This document shows, in pieces, positions 10,966 to 46,140 of a stretch of 64,000 nt of DNA (within the stretch, counting starts at the first letter, position 1; the number at the start of each line of letters is the position of its first letter). A model generated the notes under the pieces. The model searched no databases. It was not told the DNA's origin and was given only the letters and a program-made list of their open reading frames with translations. This stretch comes from Daphnia pulex (taxonomy: Eukaryota; Arthropoda; Branchiopoda; Diplostraca; Daphniidae), in assembly GCF_021134715.1 (NCBI RefSeq), contig NC_060026.1:7307001-7371000 (forward strand), given 5' to 3'. A program made the translations under genes and the position numbers.

Positions 10966-12310
10966 GATTGATTTAGCAATGGCTATAGCAATCAACTTTT
11001 GTTAATAATCCACTTGCCAGCAAGAGCAAAAAAAGCTTATACAACTGTAGCATCAATTATTTATGTTAAATTGATAAAGAACAGTTTTTGTATGTCACAT
11101 AACATAACCTAAATTGGGCCATACAAATGCAATGATATATACATGTCGGGTCAAAGATCAATGCCTATTGAATAATATCGTGCGTTTGCGCGTAGCCTCC
11201 AAGATGAAAACCAGCACCGTTAATTCAATAAGGGAATTCACACAATTTTCCAATAAAACAATTTCATATTAGCAACTTACACGTAAACATTCCAAGTTAA
11301 ACATACAGACGTAATGTTATCTAGTTCTATTTACACACACAAAATTTGACACATTTAGCCTACTTTTACAAGTTTACTTTCACGAAACGGAACTAAAATC
11401 TAGCAGACAACTACTGTTGAGGAATGAATGAATCATAAGGCCTAAACACTCAAGACTGCCGTGTAAAAAATTCGGATTTCTAAAAAGACAAAAAGTATGC
11501 GCGCTCTGCAGCTACCCCAGATGGCAAGACCTACCCCATAAGAAAAAGGAACATCTTCCTGGGTGCATTATTTAGGTCAATATTTCCCGATAGGGATTTA
11601 TCGGCAAACGACCCTGTCCTCCCACCCCCACCCCACCCGACCCCACTCTACCCACCTCCCACTCAGGACGGGGGGACGACGTCTCTTTCTTCTACGGCTC
11701 GATAGCTGTTTTCGGGGTTTTTTACTCGATTTCTCTCTGGGAGGTGGCGCTGTTCCTCTCGGAGAGATAGGGAAACGATTTTCGTTTGGGGGGTTCCATT
11801 GTTCTTTTATGCGATTTGCGGGGGTTTTCGTCACGGTATTCAAATTGTGACCGTCTTGTAGAGGGGATGCTATTACATTGCAACGTCGTGATCCCGCTTT
11901 GATTGAGATAATGGGGTCGGTGTGATTTAAATGTAAAAAAGAATCGCTTATTTTTAGTTAGTTTTTCTCCCGACAGGTGGTTCTGACGCCAATCCATAAT
12001 TCAAGGCCGACGAACTTCAACGCGGCCTTGGATTGGATTGAAAAACAAAACAAAAACAAAACAAGGCTGGCTGCTAATCAATCAACTGAATCAAGGCAAG
12101 TTTAAAGAAAAATGTAGTCAAATTTTAAATAATGTAGGTAGTATAATCCTTTGATTGTAAATTATTTTCCCTACTACGTAAAGCTGGTACAATAGCCGTA
12201 CGGTTTTTTATATACCGAAGAGCATTCATTCATCATGGAGTCCAGGTATAATTAATTAAATTCTGTTGGTCTCTTATTGAAATAAAATTGTCCTTACTTA
12301 ACGAAATTCA
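10966..12310. other. Non-coding region upstream of the TMEM68-like gene
   Basis: No supported gene. 11560-11850 is unusually C/G-rich with runs of C (CCCACCCCCACCCCACCC near 11620) and contains open frames on both strands with low-complexity composition, which are judged spurious. TTTCCCGATAGGG at 11583-11595 recurs inverted at 15061-15073. The remainder is AT-rich. Confidence 0.5.
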
Positions 12311-12592
12311 ACTTTGGATATATCAAAGGATGATTTACGATGTGATGGTAGAACAATGCTGGATTACCACCCTATAATTCTTGAAACTACATTAGTTTCC
12401 AATGCCAGTGGATCGGCAAGGCTGAGACTTGCAAACTCAACAACATCTGGAAAATGAAATTTGCAAATTCCTACAAAGATCCTATGCTTCAGGTGATACA
12501 ATTAATTTATGTCAACTTTCTTTATTGACACGACAGCAACATTGGGTCTTGTATGTTGACATATTGATATAGCTGATGTGATATTTCCACCA
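12311..12592 (+). pseudogene. Exosome subunit EXOSC7 (Rrp42-type) pseudogene, 5' piece
   Basis: The frame from 12311 reads TLDISKDDLRCDGRTMLDY, then PIILETTLVSNASGSARLRL. This is the N-terminal RNase PH fold of EXOSC7, followed by a premature TGA near 12455 and a retained donor at 12493. A second exon block (12511-12592) matches the piece at 14793-14876 on the other strand and is frameshifted. The copy ends abruptly where cyclin G-type sequence begins. Retained intron borders show that it came from DNA duplication, not retroposition. Confidence 0.8.
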
Positions 12593-13631
12593 GTCCTGAT
12601 GTATCAACACTGGTGCAGAGTCTACGACAAGCCTTGGCCCTTGAAGCTAAATTCCAACCAAAGCTTCAACTTCTGTCAACACTCAACAGCCAGCAATACA
12701 GGAGTAAGTATTCTGTAATGCTTCTTCTATTGAGAATACAAACTAATTTGTAATTTGTTGTTTGTGTTTTAGGAAAGCGGTGAAATTATGTGTGCAATGA
12801 GGGATGGAGCTGCTCATGTTCTTCGCTGCATGAAAGTCTGGTATGATCTTCCTTATGCAGTTCTTCTGGATGCTCTCAACATGATGGACTGGTTCATGAG
12901 CCGCATGAAAGCACTCCTAAACACCTCTCATGCATAGCAATCAGCTCCTTCCATCTAGCAGCTTGCCAATGGGTGGAGAGGATTAAACAGAACAACATTG
13001 AGGTATCTTCCATTCAGAGTCCATTGTAGGTATGTTGACAGTTTTAATTGGCTAGTATTCAGGTTGTCTAATAAATTTTAATTAATAGATTGTTCCTGAA
13101 CCTCAATATCTGGTAACGATATCTTAATGTAAATGTACCGCCGGAGACATCAACCGGATGGAAAAAATTGTCTAAGCCAAGTTAGCTTGTCTACCCCAAG
13201 AAGAACCGGTCACGACCTTAAAATTCCTCAACCTGTATCACTCACTTCTCTCGACGACTTTACCTGCCGCTCTTCAGCAAGACCTTCTTATTCTTTCATG
13301 CAAGCAGGAGACCATTTGCTGTGACGCAAAATAATGCTGCCTTTCCCTCATCTCTTTTGGCTTTCGTCCTACTGTTTGTCGAAATGAAGTGTCACCAGCC
13401 GGCCATCGAGGTTATTATCAGAGACGTTTTACTAGAACTTCAGCGACTTGTTCAGGTATTTAGTGGTTGTGCTTGTTTGTTGATTCCAATTTTGTAATGC
13501 TGATATTTTACCTCTAGGTCAAAGATGACTAGTTGAAGGAGTGTATAAGAATGGTCACTTCGGAAATGGCACCTTACGATGGCTATGCCCAAAGCAATCC
13601 GTCTCATCGTCAACGACTTACCTGGAAGTTG
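12593..13631 (+). pseudogene. Cyclin G-type pseudogene
   Basis: Pieces in order: about 12600-12703 (VQSLRQALALEAKFQPKLQ), 12773-13029 (GAAHVLRCMKVWYDLPYAV, then after a one-base loss PKHLSCIAISSFHLAACQWV), 13089-13455 (ISQCKCTAG and INRMEKIV then a stop), and about 13520-13631 ([26 protein letters not shown]). The 'R(F/M)LxKMK-xPKHLxCIAISSFHLA' cyclin box and 'RMEKIV' are diagnostic of cyclin G. There are a frameshift near 12916, stops at several points, and intron borders still in place. It is a decayed genomic duplicate, cut off at about 13631 by the bacterial-like segment. Confidence 0.85.
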
Positions 13632-13965
13632 TCCTTTTTCTACTATTTCTTTGCCTTCTAAACCATTTATAATAAGTTTTGCCTTTAGTAAAGCAAAATG
13701 CCTAGCTTTTTCTAGTCCTATACCACTTACTTGTTGAGCCTGTGTAAATTCGGGTCTCAGTGATATATGATTACCACTCTTAACAAGAAAACTATATATT
13801 TCTTTACTCACTACATCAGAAGTTTCTCCAAGTGTGCGGTCGAAAATTTTAGTCGAAATTCCCTTCATAGATAAGAGAAATAAAGCCGTAATTTCATCCT
13901 ATAAACGTTCAATTAATCTATCAAAAATCTTATCTTGTTTAGGGTGGTTATTAACCTTATATGTT
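13632..13965 (-). pseudogene. hisS-like: Relic of a bacterial (Rickettsiales-like) histidyl-tRNA synthetase
   Basis: On the minus strand, 13960 down to about 13744 reads KQDKIFDRLIERL, a stop, then [19 protein letters not shown] and SLRPEFT. These match the N-terminal catalytic core of bacterial HisRS up to motif 2 (LRPE). The GE(T/S)SDV(V/I)SKEIYSF wording is close to my recollection of Rickettsia-type enzymes rather than the animal cytosolic or mitochondrial ones. The frame then runs into [20 protein letters not shown] (to 13632), which is not HisRS and was not recognised; it may be another bacterial fragment. Part of the motif-1 region is lost. A laterally transferred endosymbiont fragment is the best reading; a decayed host mitochondrial HARS is the alternative. 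Confidence 0.65.
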
Positions 13966-14339
13966 ATTTATATAAATTTAAATACTATAAATAATGGTTC
14001 GAAATTAACTGAAAAAAGCAACAAGACTTCTGTATAATTTTACATAATTTCGATGTTACGTCATGACGTCATACGTCGAGTATGACTTGATAACCACCCG
14101 AATCAGTAAGTATCGGCTTTGACCTATTCATGAACTTATGTAGCCCACAATTATAAAAGCAAAATCTCCTGTCCTATTTACAATAAATGCTTGAATTGCC
14201 GCTTTATTTGCCGTTTCTTTTTTATACCAAAAGCACTTTAATTCAGACAACGGGCGATGGTAGAGAAATTATATAGTCAACCTAGGTTACGAAGAGATAA
14301 GTAAAGGTGAACTCTTGGAAGATTTATATCATCGCTTAA
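13966..14339. other. AT-rich DNA between relics
   Basis: Nothing coding was recognised. A palindromic CRE-like TGACGTCA occurs within TCATGACGTCATACG near 14062-14076. The EXOSC7-type 3' flank probably fades into this stretch. Confidence 0.4.
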
Positions 14340-14876
14340 ATGTTATTTCTCTAAAAGTTCCATCTTTAAGAATATCATAGCTGATGTCTTACAACTGTCA
14401 ATTTTCCTAACTGCAGTAATCATTTTAATACCAGAAAAGCTGCAGCATTTTTCTTTTGGTGTTGGAACTACTAGGAAATGGTTTCCAATCTGAAAGTGAA
14501 AACTTAGTATTATTAGACTATTTATTTCAAATTTAAAGTTTTAACCTACAAACCTTCATCAAAGTCAGTACACAAGGAATGTTCTCTGTGTTTAGTCTCT
14601 TGGTATCATAAGGATCATCTGAGAGCTCCACATCAGGTTGATATCCGTCCATGGTTGCTATTTTAATAGATGGAATTTGTGTTGCAAAAAAAGAGCCGAT
14701 TTCTCAGCCAATGACACTGCATCATAAGGGTTCCCTCCACATTCAAGAATCTATTTTAATGCCATTAAAATGTTTCATGAGAATTTGTTGATTGGTGGAA
14801 ATATCACATCAGCTATACCAATATGTCAACATACATGACCCAACATTGCTGTGTCGTGTCAATAAAGAAAGTTGTC
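14340..14876 (-). pseudogene. EXOSC7-type pseudogene, middle/3' piece, inverted
   Basis: Minus-strand exons can be read: 14876 to about 14826 (FFIDTTQQCWVMYVDIL, donor GTATAG), then about 14755-14555 (ILECGGNPYDAVSLAEKSAL; two extra T in a poly-T run shift the frame; then ATMDGYQPDVELSDDPYDT and NTENIPCVLTLMK, donor), then after an intron IGNHFLVVPTP and degraded sequence ending LKDGTFRE near 14340. All align to the EXOSC7 core. Introns are retained. The 14793-14876 block duplicates 12511-12592 in opposite orientation. Confidence 0.85.
14793..14876. repeat. Inverted copy of 12511-12592
   Basis: The reverse complement of this block matches 12511-12592 at nearly every base, with a few substitutions and a short indel (GACACGACACAGCAATG against GACACGACAGCAACATTG). 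The block covers one EXOSC7-type exon plus the adjacent intron start, so both copies derive from the same gene segment. Confidence 0.9.
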
Positions 14877-15406
14877 ACACCCCATACTTTCGAGTCAAAC
14901 TCGCGCGTGGGTTTTTAATTTTTGGGGCAGATTCATTTCGGTTAGCAATTTTTTTTCCCGTTCCTATTGTTATGGGCTTTTTTTTATTCCCTATAAAACG
15001 ATTAATCGAACAAAAACATCGAACCCAAAGCTAAAAAGACACAAACTCCGCAAAAAAAAACCCTATCGGGAAACTCGCGCGCGAAGCAAGGGATCGGCAT
15101 ACAATCATGTTTCATACATATCAAAACTTATTCTTCTAAAGCACTGAAAATCAACAATCTCCGAGTCTATGACAGTAATGACAGGCATGCTTAACAATAG
15201 TTCTAAAGATTTCCACGTGAGGCGCTACTGACGCCCTGACGGTTTATACATGGTCTATATCTGGCGGGCCTGGGCCCGACAGAAGAATATTATAACCGAT
15301 CCAGTACCGCCGGTAGCGCCGATACCATCCTACTGATCCTAGAATAAAATAAACCACATTGAAAACACAAACTGATATATATTTTTGTTACAAAAACCTA
15401 CAAAAA
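14877..15406. other. Spacer and probable mRpL24 promoter
   Basis: AAACTCGCGCG occurs twice (14897-14907 and 15071-15081). CCCTATCGGGAAA at 15061-15073 is the reverse complement of 11583-11595. GC-rich sequence at 15210-15340, including GGCGGGCCTGGGCCCG, is the likely mRpL24 promoter. Overlapping open frames at 14792-15147 look spurious. Confidence 0.45.
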
Positions 15407-31492: not shown

Positions 31493-34400
31493 ATGGTCAG
31501 AGAGACGCGACATCTTTGGGTGGGTAACCTACCAGACAACGTCAGAGAGGAACGAATTCGTGAACATTTCCAAAGGTAGGCAGCCATGTTTTTTTTTTGT
31601 ACCTAAAATTTTTTTCACAAGATTCATGTAGAAAAGTAGGAATCAAGTGTGTGTGTGTGTGTTATTTTGCGCCGAAGCTTCCTTTCTTGACGAACGGCCA
31701 TTGACGACCCCCTCCCTTTTCCTCCCTCATTTCCCCTTGGACTTGTCCTCTACAGACCCCTTTTTCCTCCCCACTCACCCAACTCCCCCTCCACCTCCTT
31801 TTATTTTCTTTGTGTGTTCTCTCTTCTCTCTCTCTCTTTTTTTATGCTTCCTTCCATTCTTGGGTTTCTCTCCCCATCATCAGATCTCTCTCATTCTCCG
31901 ACTGTACACACGCGCGCGGTGGGGGCAACGGCTGCCTTCTCCAACACAATCATGGCGGACACAAACGATCGTTTCAACCAAGAGCGTCTCGACGTTTTTT
32001 CTCTTTTCCTTCTTCATCAAAACCTTCTTCTTTCTTTCTTTTTGCCTTCTTTTGCGGTCAAGCAACTCTTGCCGAGTCGTGTAGGATGGAATTTCAGCGT
32101 GCGTTAATACATTTCCAGGTGTTTTCTTCGACTCGAGTCAACTCTGAATCTTTTTCGATCGAATTGAAAATGAGCTACCCAAAGACCAAAACAGAATGAA
32201 TGTCCCAACAACGATGGCGTCTTTTTTTTCCCTCTCTCTTTTCCCTCTCTCTTTTCCCCATCTCTTTTCCAATTTTTGTTCGTCTTCGTCTCCTTTTTAT
32301 CCGTCTCTTTCATGCCCTTTCGTCCGTGATCAATGGGGGGTGGGGGACGTGTTACCTGGCGCAGCCAACCGATCGTCTATACACAGTATAGGGTCCGTCT
32401 CATTCTTTTGCCCGTCACGCCACTTCTGCGGTTTTTTCTCCTCTTCTTCTTCTTCTTTGCCTGGGGCTTTTTCCCCCAAGTTTCATCACATACACAACCG
32501 AAAAAGAATCCACCTTTTTCTTTTCTGTCTGGTAGAATTCCATGTGTAATAATGATTCTTTACATTCTGGATGGGTGGAGTTGTCGTACACTACGCCGAA
32601 TGCGCGTCGTCGTCGTCGTGTGATTCACCTCCATCGAACATTTATTGATTTCCATGGCCATCTCTTATTTTCTCAGTAGATACGCGGAATATATGACCTT
32701 CACTATGGTGGTTGTAGGTACTAGTAGTAGTAGAGGGAATAGTGGTAGGTTTTGAGAGTTATGACGTCAATATTCAACAAGTTTTCACAAACACACTGCC
32801 ATCTGGTGCCGTTTTTCTTTTTTTTATTGTTAAATTCCTGTGTGTGCTGCTTCTTCTTGTCTTAATTATTAATTATTATTATTTCCCTTTTTCTCTAGAT
32901 ATGGTCGCGTGCAAAGTGTCAAACTTCTGGCCAGGAGTTCCAGCAAAGATGAAGAGGTCGGCAGTGGTAGTGTCAGTACGGGCTATTGTGCCGCAGTGGC
33001 GTTCATGGACATTAAATCGGCGGCCAAAGCACATGCCTCGGAGAACAGTCTCGACGATCGATGCCTGGTGACAGATTACTATGAACCATTACTGGGCGAT
33101 CAGGGACGCACGCCCGGCAGTACTACAACCGCTGGATTAGGGTCGTCAAATACACCCAGCGGTAGTGGCGGTGGTGGTGGTGGTGGCGGCGGAAGTGTGG
33201 GCCGATCGTCGCATTTGATCAACAACAACAGCAGTGGAGGAGGAGGAGGAGGAAGTGGTGGTGGTGGTGGCTACGACCGGCCATCTAGTCATTACTTTGA
33301 ACGGCGCAGCGATCCGGACGGGTCCGGAGCATTCCTCCGCCGACAAGGGCCGGTCAACCATCATTATCGAGATCGGCCCTATCGGAACAGTAACGGACCA
33401 TTTGTGCGGGATACTGGTGGCGAAAGAAATTCTGGCCACTTTCGATCCGGCACTGGATCGGCCGGCGGTCCATCCCCTGGCAGCTGGAATTCATACGAGC
33501 CAGCTGGACCACCTTCAAGTCGTTATCCGCCGCCCGACTACGGCGGAGGTATGGACGAACGGTCGGAACGCATGTCACAAGCCGACCTGCTGCCCAGCAC
33601 GCCTACCACTGGGAAAAGGACAGCTCCGACTCCTGCTGGACTCTCTTCCACCACTAACAACACCACCTCCTCCTCTTCAAGTGTCAACAATACACCCCTC
33701 TCGGCCCGCAAGAGGAAATCCAGGTAGATATATTTATCCATCGATTGTTGCCATGGTCTGGCTGGCGTCAGTGGTGGGGGTTACCTTGGTGACCGGTTTG
33801 TTGCGGCAGATGGATTCAATTTCGATTGTTTTTATTTTTTCCCCCTAGTCGATCTCCTAGCCGATCCAGATCCAGGTCGGATTCGAGGACACCGCCCAGC
33901 AGTAGTAGAAGTCGTTCCAGATCACATTCTCCGGCTTCATCTGCTTCTGTTCCATCACGATCCAGATCGAGATCGACGTCGGGTTCTCGACTTCGATCAA
34001 GGACTTTATCGCCTGGTGGATCCAGCTCGCGTTCCAGTAGCCCTCAGTCGGCTACCAGTCGGACTAACAAAACACCCCGTTCCGCCCAGTCGTCGAGTTC
34101 ACCGCGTAGTCGTAGTTCGCGATCGTCCCAAGGATCGTCGCGATCCCCCGGCTGGTTATCCTCATCAGCTGGCCCACGGAATTCACGCTCATCCCGTCAC
34201 CGCTTGTCGGGTGGTGGTGGTTCGACGGCCCTCAACACATCATCTCCAGCTGGGCAACTCTGCCATTCGGCCGGATCAACAGGCTCTGGTGATGGTGACC
34301 GTAGGCCCTTGGCCATTTGTGTCCGTAATTTGCCCTTGAGGTCATCTGACACTAGCCTCAAAGACGGCCTGTTCCATGAGTACAAGAAACACGGCAAAGT

Positions 34401-37400
34401 GGTGACAGTGAAAGTGGCAGGCCAGGGTTCCGATCGTGTGGCCATTGTTCGATTTAAAAAGGCTGAAGACGTCGACAAGGCACTCGAAGTGTCTCGTGAC
34501 AAACTCTTTTTCGGATGTAAAATCGAAGTGACTCCCTGGGATTCTGGACTTGATTTGGATGACAATGAATTTCGACCGCTGGAAGCCGATTTGGATGAGT
34601 ACCACCCGAAAGCTACGCGAACACTGTTCATTGGCAATTTGGAAAAGGATGTGACAGCCGCTGAACTAAGAGCCTCTTTTGAAACATTCGGACCCATCAT
34701 CGAGATTGACATTAAAAAGCAGAGCCAAGGCTCTTCGTCCGGTGCTAGTGGTGGTACAGCTGGTGGAACAGTGACCACGACTAGCAGTGGTAGTGGCGGT
34801 GGTGGTGGTAGTGGCGGTGGTAGTGGCAGTGGCAGTGGTGGAGCAGTTGGCAATTCCACGTCGTCATCCTCTTCGTCCTCGTCAGCCGCGAATAATAATA
34901 ATAACAACAACAACAACAACGCCTACGCATTTTGCCAGTATGCCGACATAGCGTCTGTAGTGCGGGCAATGAGGCATTTAGACGGTGAACAAGTGGGCAA
35001 CACCCGGGTCAAGTTGGGTTTTGGCAAATCTATGCCAACCAATTGTGTCTGGTTGCACGGAGTTGCTGAATCGGTGGCCGAAAAGTTCCTGGCGAGACAC
35101 ATGAGCCGATTTGGTCATGTTTCTTACGCGGCCATCGACAGAGAGAGGTTCAACGGTCTCGTGTTTTACGATCAGGTCAGTTGTGCACAGGCTGCCGTCC
35201 AGGAATTGAGAGGTCGCGCACTAGCTGGACGTAAACTTCAGGTGGATTTCGCTTCTCGTGAATGCCAAGCTCACTTTTTCGAACTGGTCGAACGTGAACC
35301 GAGAAGCAACAGCAGCAGTTCAGCGGCAGCAGCTGCATTGGCCGTGTCTTCGGCTATCCAGCACAGATTACCGTCTGCCACCACTCCATCTTCATCTGGA
35401 CGCACAGTCCGAACTCCCTCTTGTAGTAGCCGTTCATCAACACATTCAAAAGAACGGACCGGCTCCTCTAGTTCCAGGTAAATATATATATATTTCTCTT
35501 TCTGCTCTTCTTGTCGATTCGTTCATGTCAGTTAGTAGAAAGGCAAGAGTGATGCTTTTTTAAAAGATAAAAACAAATGCTATATTAATAGATGATCCAT
35601 TTATTTAACATTAACCATATTATTCTGAAATTTAGGTCGCGTCATGGCGGTAATTTGAGTCGGGACGAATCCCTTGAACGCGATGCCGAAATGAAAGACC
35701 TGACGGGCGAACGCGACACAGATCTCATCAGCGCCCGTCGCTGTTCTCGGTCGCCTTCACCATGTGAAAAGGCCATCCATCGGCACCCTTCCGTCGAACC
35801 GGATGTTGCTTCGTCCGGATCGCCCTACACCTTATTGGAACGTGAACGAACTCGTCGTTATGGTAGTGGAGGAAGTAGTAGCAGCAGTGGATTAAGCATG
35901 GATACGGGGAGCGCTACAGCCTTACCAACGGCAAACGGATCCGATGTTTTCACTCGCATCCGCGATTTGAGCGAAGAGCGAGTCGACGGTGTTGCCAGTA
36001 GTTCCGGCGAGGATGAGGAAGACGAAGAAGAAGAAGAGGAACAACAAGTTTCGGATGTCGAATCCAGGTTAGTTGCCACCACCAAGTCGGCCTCATCTGC
36101 TTCTAAGAAATCAAAGAAAAAGAAATCAAAATTGAGTGGAAGTAGCGACAGTGGCGTCAGTGATGTTAGCACCAACGAGCCCCTCCCGTCCAGCATTCAG
36201 CAGGCATCGTCTCTTCTTGTCGGCCATACGTCCAGTTCATCCGGTGGCTCATCGGCCTTGTCGACAGTTTGTATGACATCACAAACACCCAAACTATTGC
36301 AACCGTTGAGCCGGCCAAGTCGGAGAGTGTCGCGACTTTCAACGGATAGTTCAGGTGATGGAACGGCCAATGCGACAACGACCAAACATTCCCTGCCGCG
36401 CATCATTCCTTGGGAGGTGGAGACACCTTCGTCGCGCAAGAGCCGGCAGCAGGAACAAGGTTGTAGCCGGCCCGGAACCCCACTCTGCGATGAAAACGAC
36501 GAACCACCAACAGATCCTCGAAAGGAACGACCAGTTCGCGTTGCTCTTGAGCGTCCCATGACGTTACCTTTACCTCGGTTTGGTTTGGAACTCAACCTGT
36601 CCGGCTGCCGTGTCAACTCCTGCAAAACAGCATCGTTATCTTGTTCCTCATCGGCTTCTGCTTCTGGGACGCCATCTTCGTCGGATGGAACGTTCCGTAT
36701 ACCGCACCCGCACGGCACCTCAGTCAGTCCGTCGCGGGGCGCCGCCGTCCCTGGTTCACCTCGAGGTGGAGCCCCTGAATCCGCCCAACAGCAGCAGCAG
36801 TTGGACTCATCATCCGATTCTGAATGTTCTTCCGGCTCTTCTCCAAGAGCGTCACTGAGTACGACGGCCGTTAGTCTTGCGGAGCAATTAAGGCAATGGG
36901 AACAACGATATGAACAATGGTCCAGCCGTTCAGCTCATTCGTCTGGTGAAGGTCCTGTTGTCGGTCCACCTACTACCCCAACGGCCCAGCCGGTGACCAC
37001 AGTAGCCACTGTGTCTGTAGCGGCCGCTCCGATAACGGCAGCGGAACGGTATCGAACTCGTAAAGCCCGTCCAATGAGCCTGGAGGAGCTAAAATCGCAG
37101 GAACCTTCGGATATTGTCCGTTGCTTGCTGGCCAAGCATTCGGTCTTTGATGAGGATCTCAAGCGATTGGAGAGCAGTGGTCGAGAGACGACCGCAACGA
37201 CACCAACAGTGGCCAGTCCAGCAGTGAACAAAGAGAAGAAATTGAGTCCAGTAGTCAATCACGTTTCCGTCCCAGCGTCACCCACCATCATCACCAACAT
37301 CTCCTCTAGCAACAGTCAGGCTGCTGCAAAGTTGTTTCCACCCGTCACGCCTCCACCTCCACCGGCCATTGAAGTCATCAAATCACCGGCCGAACCGTCG

Positions 37401-40400
37401 CCCAGGACTCCATCTCCATTACCACCACCTCCTTTGCCGAAAGAGTCGCCACCCCCTAGTCCGTCGCCTCCACCTCCGCCAGTGGCCAAAGAAGAAGAAT
37501 TTGCCGATCCAGTTGAACCCATGGATGAAGATTTGATGGATGAAACGGACGGCAGTTTGGTGATTGCCACTGAGGAAGAAGTGCCGGAAAAAGAGGAAAT
37601 TCGGGAGCCAGTAAATCTCCTTCCTCCACCTCCGCCACCACCTCCTCCTCCTCCGCCACCTCCTACAGAACCAGTGGAAGTGAAAGAACCGTCTCATCCA
37701 CCTCCGCCCGAACCTGCGCCAGTCGAAACACCCGTGGTTGAGACTCCACAGAAACCATCGCGGAGTAGCAAACATCCGGAATCTTCGTCCAAGTCTTCGT
37801 CATCCCGTGATGTGAAATCGAGTGAACGGTCGAGGCATTCTTCCAGTTCGTCACATCGCAAGGAGAAATCAAGTTCCTCTTCATCATCATCGTCGTCTTC
37901 GTCCACTTCCTCTTCCAAAGATTCCGCTGGAAATAAACCCCAAGAGATTAAAACCGAACCAACAACGATTGATCCAGCATTGGCTCGTTGGAAATCTCGT
38001 GAATCAAGTGAACAACAGGCGACGACGCCAACTTCCAACGATGCTGCCAAGCGTCGTCGAAGTGTTGATGCTGGAACACCGTCTAGCAAGCGGGTCAAAT
38101 CGGAGAAACTTGGCGAGACTCGAGAGAAGGATAAGAGTAGCAAAACGTACGATAAAGAGAACAAAGAGACACCCAAAAGTTCCAAATCGGAGAGTGGTCG
38201 TCGTGAAGTCTCTAAATCGCATTGCTCTTCTACGCCGTCCCTGAGCAAGAAATCCAAACCAGAGTTGGACTTGACCAGTTTGAAACCATGCAAAATGGAA
38301 ACGGAGAAGAAGCCGTCGCGCGACGATTCGGACAAGAAAAGCAACAAATCCAGCAGTGGCAAAAAGGATAAAAAGGATAAAGAACGTGACAAGGATCGTA
38401 GCAGAAGACGAGAAGAAGAGCGCGAACGTGAAAAGCGAAAAGAAGAAGAACGTGAAAAACGGAAGGAGGAAGAACGGGAGAAAAAGAGAGAGGAGGAGAT
38501 TAAATTGAAGGAATACAAGGCAAAACATCAGGTGAATATCTTTTTCTCTTCCCAAATTCATAGGTTTTAATCGTGTTTTATTAATTATTATTTCTTTTGC
38601 AGTCTCCGGCCAGTGCCTCTTCATCTCATCGCCGTAGGAGTGAAGGAGAGCGCATTAAATCTTCTTCGAAAACTGAACATTCATCTCGCAAACCGGCAAT
38701 CCAGCCACCTCGACAGAGCTTGCCCAGTCGGAAGAAATCGCACTCGGATAGCGATAGCAGCAGCAGTAGCAGTAGCAACAGCAGCGTTGGTGGTGGTGGT
38801 GGTGGCCGGCACAGTGACGATGAAAATCATACGTCGGTGGTTCGTAGCGGAAGCAAAGCTAGCAGTGATGACGATTCCGATTCGAATCATTCCAACGACC
38901 AGGAAAAAGCAGACCGTGAGCTGGCCGAATTTTTGCAAAATGAGCCCACCTATTTCTCAATGTACGACAAAGTGAAGGCTCGTTCGCTGAAACTTCAACA
39001 ACAAAAGCGCCAGGAAGAAGAACGGAAAACGGTGCAACAGCAACAGCAGGACAAATTCTGTGCCCTCCGCCAAGCTCGTTTAGCTGGCGGATCCGCACCC
39101 ACAAGCAAAAGGGACAAGGATGGAAAGAAGAATGTCTGGGATTCGTCTGACTCCGATTCAGATGGTCCCGTCCGTTCAAATCGTCCGAGGCCTGTGGCTA
39201 CAGCGTCACTTTTATCCAACTCCGTCAAATTGTCCTCTTCGTCGTCGGAAGATTCTGAGCCCATCGCGCCTCCAAGTAAATTTAAGGATTTCTTGTTTGA
39301 TCAGCCGGACCCCAAATCTGTGAAATCGCGTACACATCCGCCTCCACCGACACCGTCCAGTCACAAATCCAAGCCTTTACTCTCTTCATCTGATTCCGAT
39401 AGTGAACCTGAGGTTAAGCCAACGCCCAAACCCAAAGTTCGTGCCGAGCCAACAGCTGCGGTTACCAAGCGACGACCAAGTATTCCAGAAATCACACAGT
39501 CAAAAACCACTCCCGTCGAGACCAAGAAAACGGTCGATCGCTCAAATTCTTTGCCCGTCAAAAAGAGCAAAAAAGAATCGTCCACCAAGTTACATCACTC
39601 GAATTCAACATCCGGCAAACTCAGCAGCAGAGGCGAAGAAAAAATGGAAAATATTTTCGGTCCACTCTCGGACGATTCGGATGACCAGCAACGGATAGCT
39701 CGTGCTCCACCAGCTGTAGCAACAGCAACCCCAACCAATCCGAGATTGCAAGTTTCTATCGTCTACAGTTCGGATTCGGATAGTGGCCGAGTACCACCCG
39801 CCCCCAAGCAGGAAAGTTTACCTTCTCCACCATTGACTGACAAAACTGACAAGAATAGCGATCGGCAACGTAAGAAGAAATCGAAAGAGTCGCGTACCAG
39901 AGATCGCAAGAAATCTGGATCCAAGGAGTCTGGTACAACAGAGACGCCCAATCATCATCACAAAAGCCGTCCGGTTGTTGAAGCCGTCAAAGAGCAGCAG
40001 CAAAGTGACGGTGAGGAGTTGCAAGAAGCCGGTCGGGCTCTCGAATCGAAATTGATGGAAGATTCTTTGATTGCCATTGCTCACCTTGCTCAGAAAGAGA
40101 AAGATAAGAAAGAGGCGGAATTGAAGGTTGTAGCAGCCCAGACGGCCGTAGTTGTTGATCAGCACAAAAAGAAAAAGAAGAAGAGCAAGAAGAATCATCG
40201 TGAAGATGGGCCACCACTACCAGCTCCACCACCACCTCCGGTGACGATCAAAACAGAATTGGGTCTTGAATTGCCATCCACTGTCATGACAATGATCAAA
40301 ACAGAACCGAATGATGTTGTTTGTCCAGCTCCGATTGCTTCTTCTTCGCCACGAGTCAAACAAGTGACGGAAGTTGTTCATCCACCTGAGCATCCGTCTG

Positions 40401-43400
40401 TGGAACCTAAACTCAGCATGCCATCTTTATTGTGGGAACCTTCAACCTCCCCAGTCATGCCTACTACTCCGCCAGTCGCCGTTGTGCCGATTGCCGTTCC
40501 AACTGAAATGCCAACACTAGTGCCCGCCGAACCAGCTGCAAGGCCGGGCATTTGGAAACAGGAGACGGAAGATGCTGTGGCGGGATTGTTAACGGAAACG
40601 TTTGACGACTTCAAGGAGGAGAAACTCGACGAAGAACCCGAGGAGCCGGTTGAAACACCTGATCAGTCATCGTTGATCCAGCCACAGTGGCCACCCGAAC
40701 AAGAAGAGTCTCCACAGCCCAACGAGGAGGCCCAAAAGGCCATCCAAAGTTTGCAGTGTGAAGATGATTTGGATATTTCGGATGAGATGATCATTGACGA
40801 AGCCGGAACAAGCTCTACAGAAGATACAGCCGGGCCGACCGAGTGTCCCCTTTACTCCGGTTCCAGTTCCAGTGATGTGGCTGAAGTGGAAAGTCAGCGC
40901 TCTGCTCGTTTGGCCGATGTCACTAAGCCAGCTGCTGTCGAAACAGCTCCAACTCCACCTCCTTCACCGCCGGAATTGTGCATTGATGAGACGAGATGTC
41001 AGCCAGAGAACGAGTCCAGCCCTCGCAAGGAATTGCCCCGGACACCCGACATCGACCTGTCGTCAAAATCTCCCAGAACACCAGATTTGGATTTACTCGA
41101 TCGAAGTGGTCGACCGACTACTCCGGACTTGCATTTGCCCACTTTACCTGTTACTAGCAATTCCGTCATCAAAGCTGAACCGCACATTGTGGCTCAAAGT
41201 CCGTCTAAACAGACCAAAAAACCCAGGCAGACTCCATCGACTCGGGGTGGACCACGACGCGTTCGTGGACGAGGAACATCAGGATCCAGTCGCGGAGTGA
41301 GTGAGAGCTCACTGGAAGGTCACGATGCAGATGTCTATGAATTTTATGACACTGAAGAGGAAGTCACTCCAATGGTGGCACCGACAGTGCCCATCATTCC
41401 TGTTCCTCCACCGCTTCCTCCTCCAGTGGCGGTTCCAGCTCCACCTGCTCCCGTCGCTGTTGCTGCCCCTGTCCCTGTCCCAGTCCCAGTTACGGTGCCA
41501 GAAGCCATTGAGCACAAGCCGGAAGAGAAACCTATGGTAGAACTACCGGTACCAGTGCCTGTTCAAGAATTCACTCCAGTCAGCCAGCCGATTCCGAGAA
41601 AAGATTTGGAAGGTCTTAAAGGCCGTTTGATAACTACAATCGACGATACGATCGAAACTGTAGTCCGTGGCCATCATAATTTATCTGCGGTGGCGCTAGC
41701 TACCACCATGATGCTTGCCGCTCCGTCCAGTCCAAGAATTCAATCTCCGAGGGCTTGCTACATTGGCGGGCCGGTGCCTCAACAGCGAACGATAGCTGAG
41801 ACGCCTGGACCGGCAGTGATGAAAGTCGAACTACCACAACCCTTGAAGGAAACGGCCAATACATTGATAGATCCAGTTACGGGCCATTTGACTCCCATCC
41901 GGCGTCATGACGATCCGCTACCCACTCAACACGCTGGAGTTGTCGTTCGACGGACAGAAGAAACAGTTGCATCGCCGTCTACTGTCGTTCTCAATCTGAG
42001 ATCAGGCTCGACCCAAGCCAGTCCGGTTGTCCAGCATCCAACTCAGACGACCACAACGACACCTGTTACCGCTTCATTGGTCAAAGTGCCATCTCCCACT
42101 AATTTGGGTGTAGCCATCACGACGACCAGTTTGCCGGTCGGGCCCAATTTGCCAACACAATCTGTTAGTCAGCAGCACGGCATCGTTTCGTCATCGGTGA
42201 CGATCATCCCAACCACGACACCGGCTTCGACCATTTTGGCGCCGATGCAGGGTACAGAAGTGGCACGTCTACCGTCAGCTACAGTTGTTACGCCCGTTCC
42301 TGCGCGTCCGGCTGCTTCATCTGTTTCGACTTTTCCAGCCGTGCCCCTCACCAGAGACGCCCCAGCCCACGGTTTGCTGCTCCAACAACAACAACAAATG
42401 CAACAGCAACAACAACAAGTTCAGCCTCCAGCTGGACCTGTTCAGCAGCAACATCAACAGCAGCAGCAGCAGCAACAACAGCAAACACAGCAGCCTTCTT
42501 CTCATACGCCGCAACTCCAGTTACCGGCTGGCGTGCCCGTCAGTTTGAGTGGAGGAGCTACTGTCATTGCCGTTGCCAGCAGTGGACGAGTTACCGGGCC
42601 AACTCCACTTCTCGGTCGGCCAACAATTGGTAAATTTGATTTCTTGTTACGATACGATAATTTGATGAAAATTGGTTTTAATTTAATCATCGTTTTATTT
42701 GTATATTGCAGCTACACCCCAGCATTCGATGCAAAACCAGCCTACGATGGGAAGTACCGTGGTGATTGCCAGAGCGACCGGCCCTCAGCAGCAACAGCAG
42801 CAGCCAGTAAACAGGTCACATGCATCAATGGCCAGTGTTCAAGCTGTAGCGCCTGCTTTGCCCGGTGTTCCTTCTCAACCCCAGCGACCTCCACCGGCTG
42901 TAGTTACCCTCTACTCTTCGGGAGCTTATTCTTCGGCATCCCAACCGGGTCCTATAGTCTCGACAGCTTCGCTGACACGGACGCAAGTCTCGGCATCTTC
43001 GTCGTCTACTGGTTCAAGCGTCTCTGTTCTCCCAGCAACTTCTCGTCCGCCTCTAACGTCGTCAACGACCAACAGTGGCGTCTCAGTTTACCCCATCTAT
43101 GGCCCAAGATCCGAATCCATGCCCGCAACTGTTACATCGACTCCTCCTGTATTCGGTTCACCATTGACAACTGCTCCAATCAGAGTGTCCGTCACTTCGG
43201 TACCTACCAGTCGAGCTACTTTGTCAACAACAGTTTCCACGCCCTACCGACCTGTGTATGCTCCTAATGAGCCGCCTTCCCATCATTTTGCTACCTATCA
43301 ACACCATTTAGTTCAGCAGCAGCAGCACTCTCCCAACATTTCTGCAGCAGAAACCAGGAGTCGGGAGGAGCCGGTCCGACAGGTCAACACGCCCTCTCGG

Positions 43401-44779
43401 GAAGACACGGAAGTTCGCCAGTTGCAACAGCAACAGATTCAGCAACAATTACAACAACAACAGCAGCAACAACAACAACAGCAGCAGCAGCAACAACAGC
43501 AACAACAGCCTATTCATCCGGCTATGATGCGCGAAATGCGAACTCCTCCGCCAGCCCATCAACATTCTCCCAGCCAAACGGATATGTCGCGTGTCAATCC
43601 ACAAATTTTACTCCATCAGCAGCTGTATCAGCAATTTTACGCTCGACATCATCCGGACTTTGCCAGAATGGGGACATTTTCTCCTGGTCCAGCATCCCAG
43701 CATGCATTGAATCCAGCAGAAGCAGCTGATTTGCAACGTGATCCGCGAGAAAGGGTTGTCCCGCCATCATTGCCATCTCATCTGAGGGTTTTGGCTGCTG
43801 GAGGTGAACACCGTACGACGGAATCGCCTCTTCAAGGCTGCGTTGCCGTTCCATTCACTGTGGCCAACACCAACCAACAACAATTATACCAACCACACCA
43901 TCGTCCGGCGTCTTCAGGTTCAGCCTATCATCAAACACCGGCTGGTCACATGCAGATGGCTCCACCTTCCCCTTCTCACCAGCATCGCCAGACGCATGTC
44001 TACACTCACGAGGAAAGTGGTGGATACCATCCGTCTCCTCCGCCTGCCCATTTGAGTGTAACCGGAGTTATGCAACGAGTCAATCCGCCGTCTCAGCCCA
44101 CTTTGGCCTGTGAAGCGCCTTCACCTGCGACTTCACTATCAGTCCGACCACCACCCATTCGGACGCCTCCGCACGCTTCGCAGGTGCCTCCTCAAGCTGA
44201 TTCGTTGGTGAGTCTGCTCCAGCGCTATCCAATCATGTGGCAAGGGCTAATGGCCCTCAAAAACGATCATGCCGTTGTCCAGATGCACTTCATCTCTGGC
44301 AATCCCATGGTCGCAAGAGGGTCGTTGCCTTGCAGCCCCGATGGTTTGGCCTTGCCGCTTCGCATAGCCCAACGGATGAGGCTGGAACAACAACAGTTGG
44401 AAGGCGTTGCCCGTAAAGTGCAAATGGAGCAAGAGCATTGTATCCTGTTGGCTTTGCCTTGTGGCCGAGATGCCATGGATGTTCTGCAACAATCCAACAA
44501 TCTCCGCCAGGGATTTATCACTTACCTCCAGCTGAAGCAGGCGGCCGGAATCGTGAATATTGCAGCTCCTGGCTCGCAACAGGTAAAACACATTTTATTT
44601 TTCATATCTTATCAAGAATTTGAGTTTCAATTATTTTTATTCATTTCTAGCCGTCTTATGTCGTCCACATCTTCCCGGCTTGCGAGTTCGCCAATGACAG
44701 TCTGGCTCGTATCACACCTGACCTTCTTCACCGCGTGACGGACATTGCCCACCTGCTTGTCATCATCGCCACCGTTTGA
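31493..44779 (+). CDS. spen: Split ends (Spen/SHARP) transcriptional corepressor
   Basis: Seven exons (31493-31575, 32899-33723, 33849-35477, 35636-38531, 38603-42629, 42712-44582, 44651-44779) give 11,460 nt, 3,819 residues. RRM1 starts at once (RETRHLWVGNLPDNVREERI). RRM2 lies near 457 (LAICVRNLPL), RRM3 near 558-700 (TRTLFIGNLEKDVTAAELR) with a long low-complexity insert, and RRM4 near 699-772. The middle is Ser/Arg-, Pro- and Gln-rich with an RS-like tract before RRM2, a charged ERE/KR stretch near the end of exon 4, and poly-Pro. The C-terminus is a SPOC domain (ADSLVSLLQRYPIMWQG through SYVVHIFPACEFANDSLAR), ending at the stop as in the family. Spen is a nuclear protein that recruits SMRT/NCoR-HDAC complexes and acts in Notch and EGFR pathways. 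Confidence 0.96.
34723..34920 (+). repeat. Low-complexity insert inside Spen RRM3
   Basis: GGT/AGT/TCx repeats followed by AAT/AAC codons encode about 66 residues of Gly/Ser/Thr ending in poly-Asn, between the IIEIDIKKQ strand and the YAFCQYAD (RNP1-like) strand of RRM3. Spen residues about 595-660. Confidence 0.9.
42381..42490 (+). repeat. CAG/CAA repeat encoding a Gln-rich tract in spen
   Basis: Interrupted CAA/CAG codons encode several Gln runs in exon 5. The mixed codons suggest protein-level selection rather than a pure unstable repeat. Confidence 0.9.
43424..43509 (+). repeat. CAG/CAA repeat encoding a second Gln tract in spen
   Basis: A nearly continuous run of CAA/CAG codons in exon 6 encodes about 28 residues, almost all Gln. 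Confidence 0.9.
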
Positions 44780-46140
44780 TTTTTTTTTTTACTCACTCCC
44801 GTCAACAAACAAAAGAAAGAAGAAAAAACGACAAATGTAGAGAAAGAAAATTGAAAAAAAAAATTCGGAAGAGAATCACACACTCCCTTTTATTGTGGTC
44901 TTTTTGCTCAATTCATTCAGAATCCAGCCCCCTATCTATCTAACTAACTTTATCTCTTTCTTCATTGTTTCATCGTTCTCTTCGTTATCATATTAATCTG
45001 ATGTACTATTCTCTCTTTCTCTCTCTCTCTCTATCAACACATCTAGAATGTCCGTTTTTCTGTCACACACTGAAGTTTAATTTAACGTCAAGCGAGTGTG
45101 TCGCAAAAATTTAAAAAAAGAAAAATTTAAAGAAAATCCCCCATTGACCGTGTGCGTGTGTGTAATTTCTTAATAATTCAAAAAACTTTTGTTCTTTCTT
45201 TTTTTTCGCCACTCCTGGACTGTTGTGTAAAAAAACCTACTCCTTCTTTCTGTTGATTTTGTTTGTGTGTGTGTATGCGTGTGTGAGCGATTGTGTGCAA
45301 ACCCCCCATGTTTTTTTTTTCTTTTTTTTTTTAAATTGTATATGTTGAAGAAACAACAGTGTCATTTGACGTGAATGAATAACAATTTACCTTTTTGAGT
45401 TCACCGAGTCTGTGATCTCGCGCCGCCGCATTGATCCCTCCGCGCCGTGTATAATTGAAATGAATGGATCGGTATAATTTTTCTTTTTGTGTTTGAATTT
45501 TGCTCTTGAAACACTCTTACACACACACACACAAACATGTTTTTTTTTTTCATCCACCCAAACCCACACACACACACACAAAAAAAATGTACATTTTTAT
45601 TCTGTGTCTTGAATTCTCGGCCACACTTTTGTCATCATCGATTTACGTTTTGTACCATATTGTATGCTAGAGAGAAGATTTGCAAAACACATTCTGGAAA
45701 AGAAAAAAGATGAAAAGCCCAACAAAGCATACGCCCCGGACTCGTGGAATTCATCCGTCGGGGTATCGTTGTATAGAGTTAACACCAATTCAGTACGCCC
45801 TTGTACATAACTCAGTGGTCAGCATGTATAAATACATGTTTATAAATGTTCCAAATTTCTGATTTAACTTATTTTGTTATCGTGAAATTAAATTTTTAAA
45901 CTGAAAAAAAGAACGCTTCGTGCGGAAAACCCGTTGATGGTGCAATAATGACGTACGTGACTCGACTCAAACGGTGATGATAAGTCCTTGAGGGAATATG
46001 CGCCATATCTTCTCTTTTTGCAGAGTCATCCCAAAGTTTATCACACTCTTGTGAGTAAGTTTGAGATTTATAGTTTAGTATTTAAATAAATCGTCATCAG
46101 GGTCGTCACGTGATTGTTTCCGGGGTTGCAATTTACCAAA
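44780..46140 (+). other. spen 3' UTR and following spacer
   Basis: AT-rich sequence with CT (45010-45030) and GT (about 45150-45300) microsatellites and a CA tract near 45520-45575. The small open frames here are low complexity. No second gene was seen. Confidence 0.55.

Follow-up and report, generated by a model that had tools for sequence, protein, structure and literature searches.

The window analysed here is a stretch of 64,000 nucleotides from the genome of Daphnia pulex (contig NC_060026.1, positions 7,307,001 to 7,371,000). Its composition varies, with the G+C content rising from ~0.37 to 0.47–0.56 across the 12 kb at 33001–45000, where the skews also change. Positions 13635–14368 of the window (~0.73 kb) contain pieces of six bacterial genes, which lie on both strands and mostly abut one another:

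13635..13743, minus strand: fragment, most likely of a 3-hydroxybutyrate dehydrogenase (SDR), with the Rossmann motif region, split over two frames
13744..13853, minus strand: HisRS fragment (NCBIfam, solved structure and DNA matches)
13846..14015, plus strand: LptC N-terminal fragment (DNA and amino acid matches, profile of the donor frame)
14027..14150, minus strand: Tgt (queuine tRNA-ribosyltransferase) fragment (TIGR00449, PF01702 and DNA matches)
14148..14242, minus strand: NuoL fragment (TIGR01974 and DNA matches)
14291..14368, plus strand: NtrX (sigma-54 activator) fragment (profile and DNA matches)

An earlier note, made from the letters alone, had described a relic of a Rickettsiales-like HisRS gene at 13632–13965. 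HisRS does lie there, but the bacterial patch extends to 14368 and four further pieces had been missed. The patchwork or filler character that it suggested was borne out.

The HisRS piece is part of a single open frame of 148 codons on the minus strand (13452–13898), which contains the words quoted in the note. Residues 16–53 of this frame matched NCBIfam TIGR00442 (E 3.3e-8), with a score under the whole-protein cut-off, as would be expected of a gene piece, and the frame also matched a solved bacterial HisRS (E 6e-5). Pfam returned no family for the whole 148 aa. At the DNA level, 13744–13853 is 86% identical over 110 bp to Rickettsiales genome G228 (E 3e-31), and the HisRS core noticed on the minus strand is therefore real. 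When the 76-residue HisRS and SDR stretch was run against 84,980 species genomes, in a scan that used exact short peptides and so finds only close relatives, five of 95 candidate stretches were confirmed. All five are Rickettsiales loci that match the HisRS part, including LL7.bin32 (G001; 86% over 37 aa), which is labelled Proteobacteria and was listed in the Rickettsiales by the DNA search, the Rickettsia endosymbiont of Bryobia graminum (82% over 39 aa) and three further loci (65–76%). Together with the G228 match, these agree with the Rickettsiales-like wording that had been claimed. When the D. pulex genome itself (133,188,837 bp in 13 contigs) was searched with the same stretch, all 19 of the matches scored (best candidates, E ≤ 10) were in copies of the repeated element described below and none was to a host HARS gene. 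Best matches to host HARS or HARS2, which had been named as the outcome that would overturn the reading, were thus not obtained.

The second segment of the frame, which had been called unrecognised, is the weakest of the six pieces. It matched an SDR model weakly (E 0.0065) and a gene of the Bryobia Rickettsia (G002) with identities of 61% over 23 aa (E 0.039) in protein and of 79.6% over 49 bp in DNA, the latter match covering 13659–13707; the other nine of the ten donor-like genomes gave no match to this piece. The G002 gene scored as a 3-hydroxybutyrate dehydrogenase with TIGR01963 (E 3e-80, under cut-off, part of the gene being given), and this is most likely the identity of the segment, judged from these similarities. 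The TGSTS motif is in the neighbouring frame (13702–13770). The G002 gene itself (L078, 438–600) appears frame-shifted in its start region.

The LptC piece is 83% identical over 155 bp (13858–14012) to G228 and 79% over 170 bp to G223, with 66% identity over 62 aa at the protein level. The donor frame is LptC according to PF06835 (E 2e-10) and TIGR04409 (E 6e-9, slightly under cut-off). Tgt was recognised by TIGR00449 (E 4.5e-7) and, barely above cut-off, by PF01702, and the DNA identity of this piece is 79–87% over 53–70 bp, including 82% to both G227 and G209 at 14082–14148. The piece continues at 14034–14053, adjoining the corresponding position of the donor gene. At 14054–14081, ~22 extra bases that include TGACGTCA split it. 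The NuoL piece matched TIGR01974 (E 6e-9; Pfam just E 0.064) and has 85–89% DNA identity in the copies compared, with 89% to G224 at 14152–14232. The last piece (14291–14368) matched the sigma-54 activator profiles FlbD (E 1e-5) and NtrX (E 2e-5; Pfam E 0.03) and is 94% identical over 78 bp to G215, G216 and G223; in G225 the underlying gene is NtrX (E 3e-51 for the portion searched). In an hmmscan of ten frames from 13635–14703, Tgt, NuoL and the sigma-54 activator were found, and weak profile matches to PpaX (E 0.11), CedE (E 0.027) and a crAss-phage domain (E 0.049) were taken as chance. Comparison with the Rickettsiales genomes gave no gene assignment for 14243–14290 and 14369–14426, inside and beside the mosaic. 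The filler DNA model would have short homologies between the ends joined at capture junctions. The similarities here overlap at two junctions, by ~8 bp at HisRS/LptC and 1–3 bp at Tgt/NuoL, which could be chance.

When 13634–14497 was used to search 343 genomes of the Rickettsiales, to which G002 belongs (two candidates scored per genome among the matches listed), 117 gave matches at E ≤ 1e-6, and the DNA identity of five of the pieces to Rickettsiales is 82–94%. A 1,013 bp section of the 5' part of the element, searched against the same genomes with two candidates scored for each, gave none of 343 at the same threshold, an empty result that has no known positive beside it and comes from DNA of different base composition. 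In a Python shuffle control, none of 200 shuffles matched at E ≤ 1e-4 compared with 34 real matches; this control is weaker than the 343-genome one because the donor loci had been chosen by their own matches. On sequence comparison, the patch is a mosaic of Rickettsiales gene fragments, the closest sequence being bacterial and not host.

The five source genes found in G228 are well separated, at 581, 681, 803, 845 and 864 kb of a 1.66-Mb contig. In seven of the ten genomes examined, the LptC, HisRS, NuoL and NtrX pieces were all matched; among the remaining three, G227 matched HisRS, NuoL, Tgt and NtrX, G224 matched two pieces and G001 one. Of 12 genomes, 11 have a Tgt gene and G002 does not. 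For four of the six pieces (HisRS, LptC, NuoL and NtrX) the best matches fall within G215–G228, and Tgt was equally good in G227 and G209, with 87% over 53 bp in G245. G001 is listed among G215–G228, which suggests one genus, and we suspect that this block is Candidatus Megaira. No direct link between Megaira and Daphnia was found in the literature, as far as the available text of it goes. We infer that a Rickettsiales bacterium was the donor lineage of the mosaic, and it can be speculated that the bacteria lived in the animal or in its food.

Copies of the element and its host-gene cargo

The bacterial patch is part of a larger unit, the features of which are:

11583..15100, plus strand: whole element, a non-autonomous Helentron-like (HINE) repeat of ~3518 bp (shared copy end points)
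11583..11596, plus strand: 5' end with subterminal inverted repeat TTTCCCGATAGGG (TCCCGATAGGGA at 11585; inverted match CCCTATCGGGAAA)
12302..12457, plus strand: captured fragment of host exosome RRP42, N-terminal part (solved RRP42, NCBIfam)
12510..12595, plus strand: internal inverted repeat, left arm at the insert edge (copy alignment)
12593..13634, plus strand: captured, intron-containing 1.04-kb piece of a host cyclin gene (gene match in L025)
14533..14703, minus strand: captured fragment of host RRP42, C-terminal part (solved RRP42, E 3e-10)
14790..14877, minus strand: internal inverted repeat, second arm (copy alignment)
15061..15100, plus strand: 3' end with the inverted 5'-end repeat, palindrome TCGCGCGCGA and GGCAT (copy ends)

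The DNA at 13600–14000 was found in full at 17 places and once interrupted, making 18 with the window included, on nine of the 13 contigs (C1, C3, C4, C5, C7, C8, C9, C10 and C11). One further match, of 35 bp, marks the cyclin locus discussed below. Copies that aligned in one piece are 95.0–99.7% identical to the window, and one part of the broken copy L022 is 91% identical. Seventeen regions were fetched and the ends were compared in 15, of which 13 reach both ends of the element and two (L010 and L013) stop short on the 3' side. The flanks differ among the copies, and copies so dispersed and so similar exclude assembly chimerism, which the earlier note had raised as a concern. Its idea of one relic at one breakpoint was replaced by that of transposon cargo, found in 18 copies. 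Among the matches listed from the host genome, no full mosaic piece lies outside the element. A partial match at C1:4469555 looks like a 5'-truncated copy, and the other partial matches are one at C4:2142554 (14427–14560 only) and seven short ones within 14497–14560.

Divergence in the bacterial patch was calculated for 16 of the 18 copies (the window and 15 others, the broken L020 and L024 being dropped) and is 0–4.1%, with a median of 1.8%. Using the D. pulex mutation rates of 2.3–4.5e-9 given in the accessible part of PMC12926508, taken as per generation, rough arithmetic places the deepest pair of copies ~5–9 million generations apart. Two copies of the element are in tandem in L018 (3078–9900) with ~45 bp between them, and the copy in L012 has a doubled 5' end.

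The cyclin piece is 92.4% identical over 1046 columns, introns included, to a gene in L025 (C3:10632001–10640000). The match stops at 13634, exactly where the bacterial DNA starts, and the foreign DNA is thus directly beside the remnant of an intron-bearing eukaryotic gene, as had been described. Translation of the L025 gene matched Cyclin_N (E 9e-9) and, under cut-off, Cyclin_C (E 0.003), and we take the captured piece to be cyclin-G-like. There is no insert in the L025 gene at the point of the mosaic junction.

On the outer sides of the cyclin and bacterial DNA are the two RRP42 parts. The N-terminal part (12302–12457) matched solved RRP42 (E 9e-6) and NCBIfam Rrp42 (E 1e-4, under cut-off), and the C-terminal part is inverted relative to it and includes a further copy of the 85-bp arm. 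NCBIfam searches of eight frames from the 5' part gave RNase-PH/Rrp42-type matches alone, in one frame, and the frame at 14343–14540 (minus strand) beside the C-terminal part matched nothing useful. A sister copy, L015 (796–3490), has its two RRP42 parts in the same orientation and gave no match to cyclin or bacterial DNA; it is without the 5' end of the element and holds ~1.6 kb of other DNA. The layout of the sister copy therefore places an insert of ~1.8 kb between the RRP42 parts.

Transposon class

Copies with both ends start with TTT and finish with GGCAT; no target duplication was evident by eye, and no empty insertion site was seen. The sequence CCCTATCGGGAAA at 15061–15073 is an inverted copy of TTTCCCGATAGGG and finishes 27 bp inside the 3' end. 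It is followed at 15075–15084 by TCGCGCGCGA, a perfect 10-bp palindrome 16 bp from the end, and TCCCGATAGGGA is palindromic in its outer four bases only. The last 36–39 bp of the element recur elsewhere in the genome. A fold of the 3' end was no better than those of shuffled sequences, with 175 of 200 shuffles at least as good.

These ends were compared with the HINEs described in the available text of PMC4067079, which have palindromic subterminal inverted repeats of 12–15 bp, one near the 5' end and one some tens of bp inside the 3' end, and a palindrome of 5–10 bp located 8–35 bp from the 3' end, and which insert between two T residues and leave no duplicated target. Subterminal inverted repeats and a 3' palindrome were both found here, and the T at the ends is a further feature shared with the HINE/DINE-1-like Helentrons of that paper; the inner repeat is 27 bp from the 3' end, compared with ~38–60 bp in its mite families, and both this spacing and the fold result count against a HINE. 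The intron-bearing cyclin piece and the RRP42 pieces, which are inside the element and were amplified with it, represent capture of the Helitron type.

Searches of the D. pulex genome gave 52 Helitron Rep matches, which were compared with 46 matches to the 5' part and 40 to the 3' end. A single Rep lies less than 25 kb from a match to the 5' part (on C6, 14 kb away on the opposite strand, the match being an internal one of 69 bp). Two Reps are near a relative of the 3' end on C8, the nearer ~6 kb away on the same strand. In the latter case the 3'-end relative is 80% identical over 119 bp, and C8:4287287–4293840 is a candidate autonomous Helentron on the strength of this arrangement. Inverted repeats of 13 bp close to each end, together with a Rep partner that is a candidate at most, could also suit some other DNA transposon with terminal inverted repeats and a transposase of another kind. 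We consider this improbable, as the 3' repeat ends 27 bp inside the element and the 10-bp palindrome and lack of a target duplication by eye are HINE-like.

Proposed capture of the bacterial mosaic

The reading we favour, at a probability of roughly 0.8, is that the bacterial patch is cargo of a non-autonomous Helentron (HINE) in which a break was repaired with host and bacterial filler DNA, and which was then multiplied. An older member of the element would have carried a piece of host RRP42. In one lineage, a break inside this RRP42-carrying HINE may have been repaired by filler DNA consisting of the 1.04-kb cyclin stretch with its introns joined to ~0.73 kb of Rickettsiales scraps from at least six genes, and the repair would have inverted the remainder of RRP42 and duplicated the 85-bp arm. 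The new element would then have been amplified to at least 18 copies, probably in trans by the enzymes of an autonomous Helentron. We infer which of the two states is older, as well as the capture by break repair, the rolling-circle movement and the autonomous partner. Points against this reading are an autonomous partner that is a candidate at most, the fold of the 3' end, the dehydrogenase piece matched in one of ten donor-like genomes, the two unassigned stretches, and the missing 5' end and ~1.6 kb of other DNA in the sister copy. The bacterial pieces are passengers, and nothing here implies that they serve host or bacterium.

The mosaic could also have come first, if symbiont DNA was inserted into the nuclear genome at a cyclin gene copy and a Helentron later captured the finished chimera. 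The cyclin and the mosaic are indeed side by side, and PMC3998919 describes symbiont DNA inserted into arthropod nuclear genomes, as far as the text available shows. We regard this order of events as the less likely one, since the matches listed include no mosaic outside the element and the L025 cyclin gene lacks the insert, though the source copy could have been lost.

Explanations that do without a transfer can be dismissed with much greater confidence. Bacterial symbionts are common in sequenced animals, and contaminating reads or a chimeric assembly might be suspected for that reason, but the 18 copies are on nine contigs with different flanks and are up to 4% diverged, and they hold, in one constant order, short pieces of genes that are dispersed in Rickettsiales genomes; the chance that this is an artefact is negligible. 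A mitochondrial origin, or decay of a host HARS/HARS2 gene, is just as hard to credit. HisRS is found in all cells and NuoL has a mitochondrial counterpart, but the lack of a host HARS among the scored matches at E ≤ 10, the five Rickettsiales loci from the scan, the 82–94% DNA identity of five pieces and the adjoining LptC, Tgt and NtrX all argue against this. Assembly chimera, host HARS, mitochondrial origin and chance were all rejected.

Several components of the favoured reading, capture by a Helentron and subsequent amplification, have precedents, which are summarized here from the parts of the cited papers that were available. Captured gene fragments are known in Helentrons, namely two Culex histone pieces in eight copies (PMC4067079), whereas the cargo here is a six-gene bacterial mosaic with an intron-bearing cyclin piece. 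Capture of filler DNA is a published Helitron model (PMC6544945), with which our case shares the internal acquisition of DNA that is not part of the element and a sister without the insert. It differs in that the source includes bacterial DNA and that several very short pieces are joined end to end. Bacterial-type sequence within helitron boundaries has been described in Pleurotus (PMC4289320), where genes or domains are, according to the authors, probably from other hosts, whereas here the DNA matches are to one order and form a shuffled mosaic. The arthropod HGT-chimeras (PMC13389597) likewise place an animal gene beside bacterial sequence with Rickettsiales among the donors, and the youngest of them are in D. 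pulex and D. pulicaria; that survey used annotated proteins from which metazoan transposable elements had been removed beforehand. The nuclear Wolbachia insertions (PMC3998919) are also Rickettsiales DNA in an arthropod nucleus, but here the DNA is in shredded pieces within an amplified transposon. Lateral transfers in Lepidoptera, covering both Helitron and Wolbachia, are the subject of PMC5704228. In the open-access literature searched, to the extent of the text available, we found no Helentron reported to carry a mosaic of several bacterial genes. Gene capture by Helitrons is known, and a multi-gene bacterial mosaic as the cargo looks to be a new form of it.

This finding suggests that bacterial DNA can be taken up by transposons and multiplied along with them. 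More tentatively, and with somewhat less confidence than even odds, rolling-circle transposons may take naked Rickettsiales DNA, intracellular or ingested, directly as filler in break repair, providing a route for its entry, shuffling and multiplication that makes chimeric frames. If this is true, ready-made animal-bacterial frames would result, an example being the 148-codon frame made up of HisRS, dehydrogenase and antisense cyclin sequence. The element is in any case a concrete example of bacterial DNA entering and spreading in an animal nucleus and of how chimeric frames could arise, and its amplified copies can be dated. It also serves as a warning that a short match to bacteria in an animal genome can stem from the cargo of a transposon, rather than from contamination or a separate transfer.
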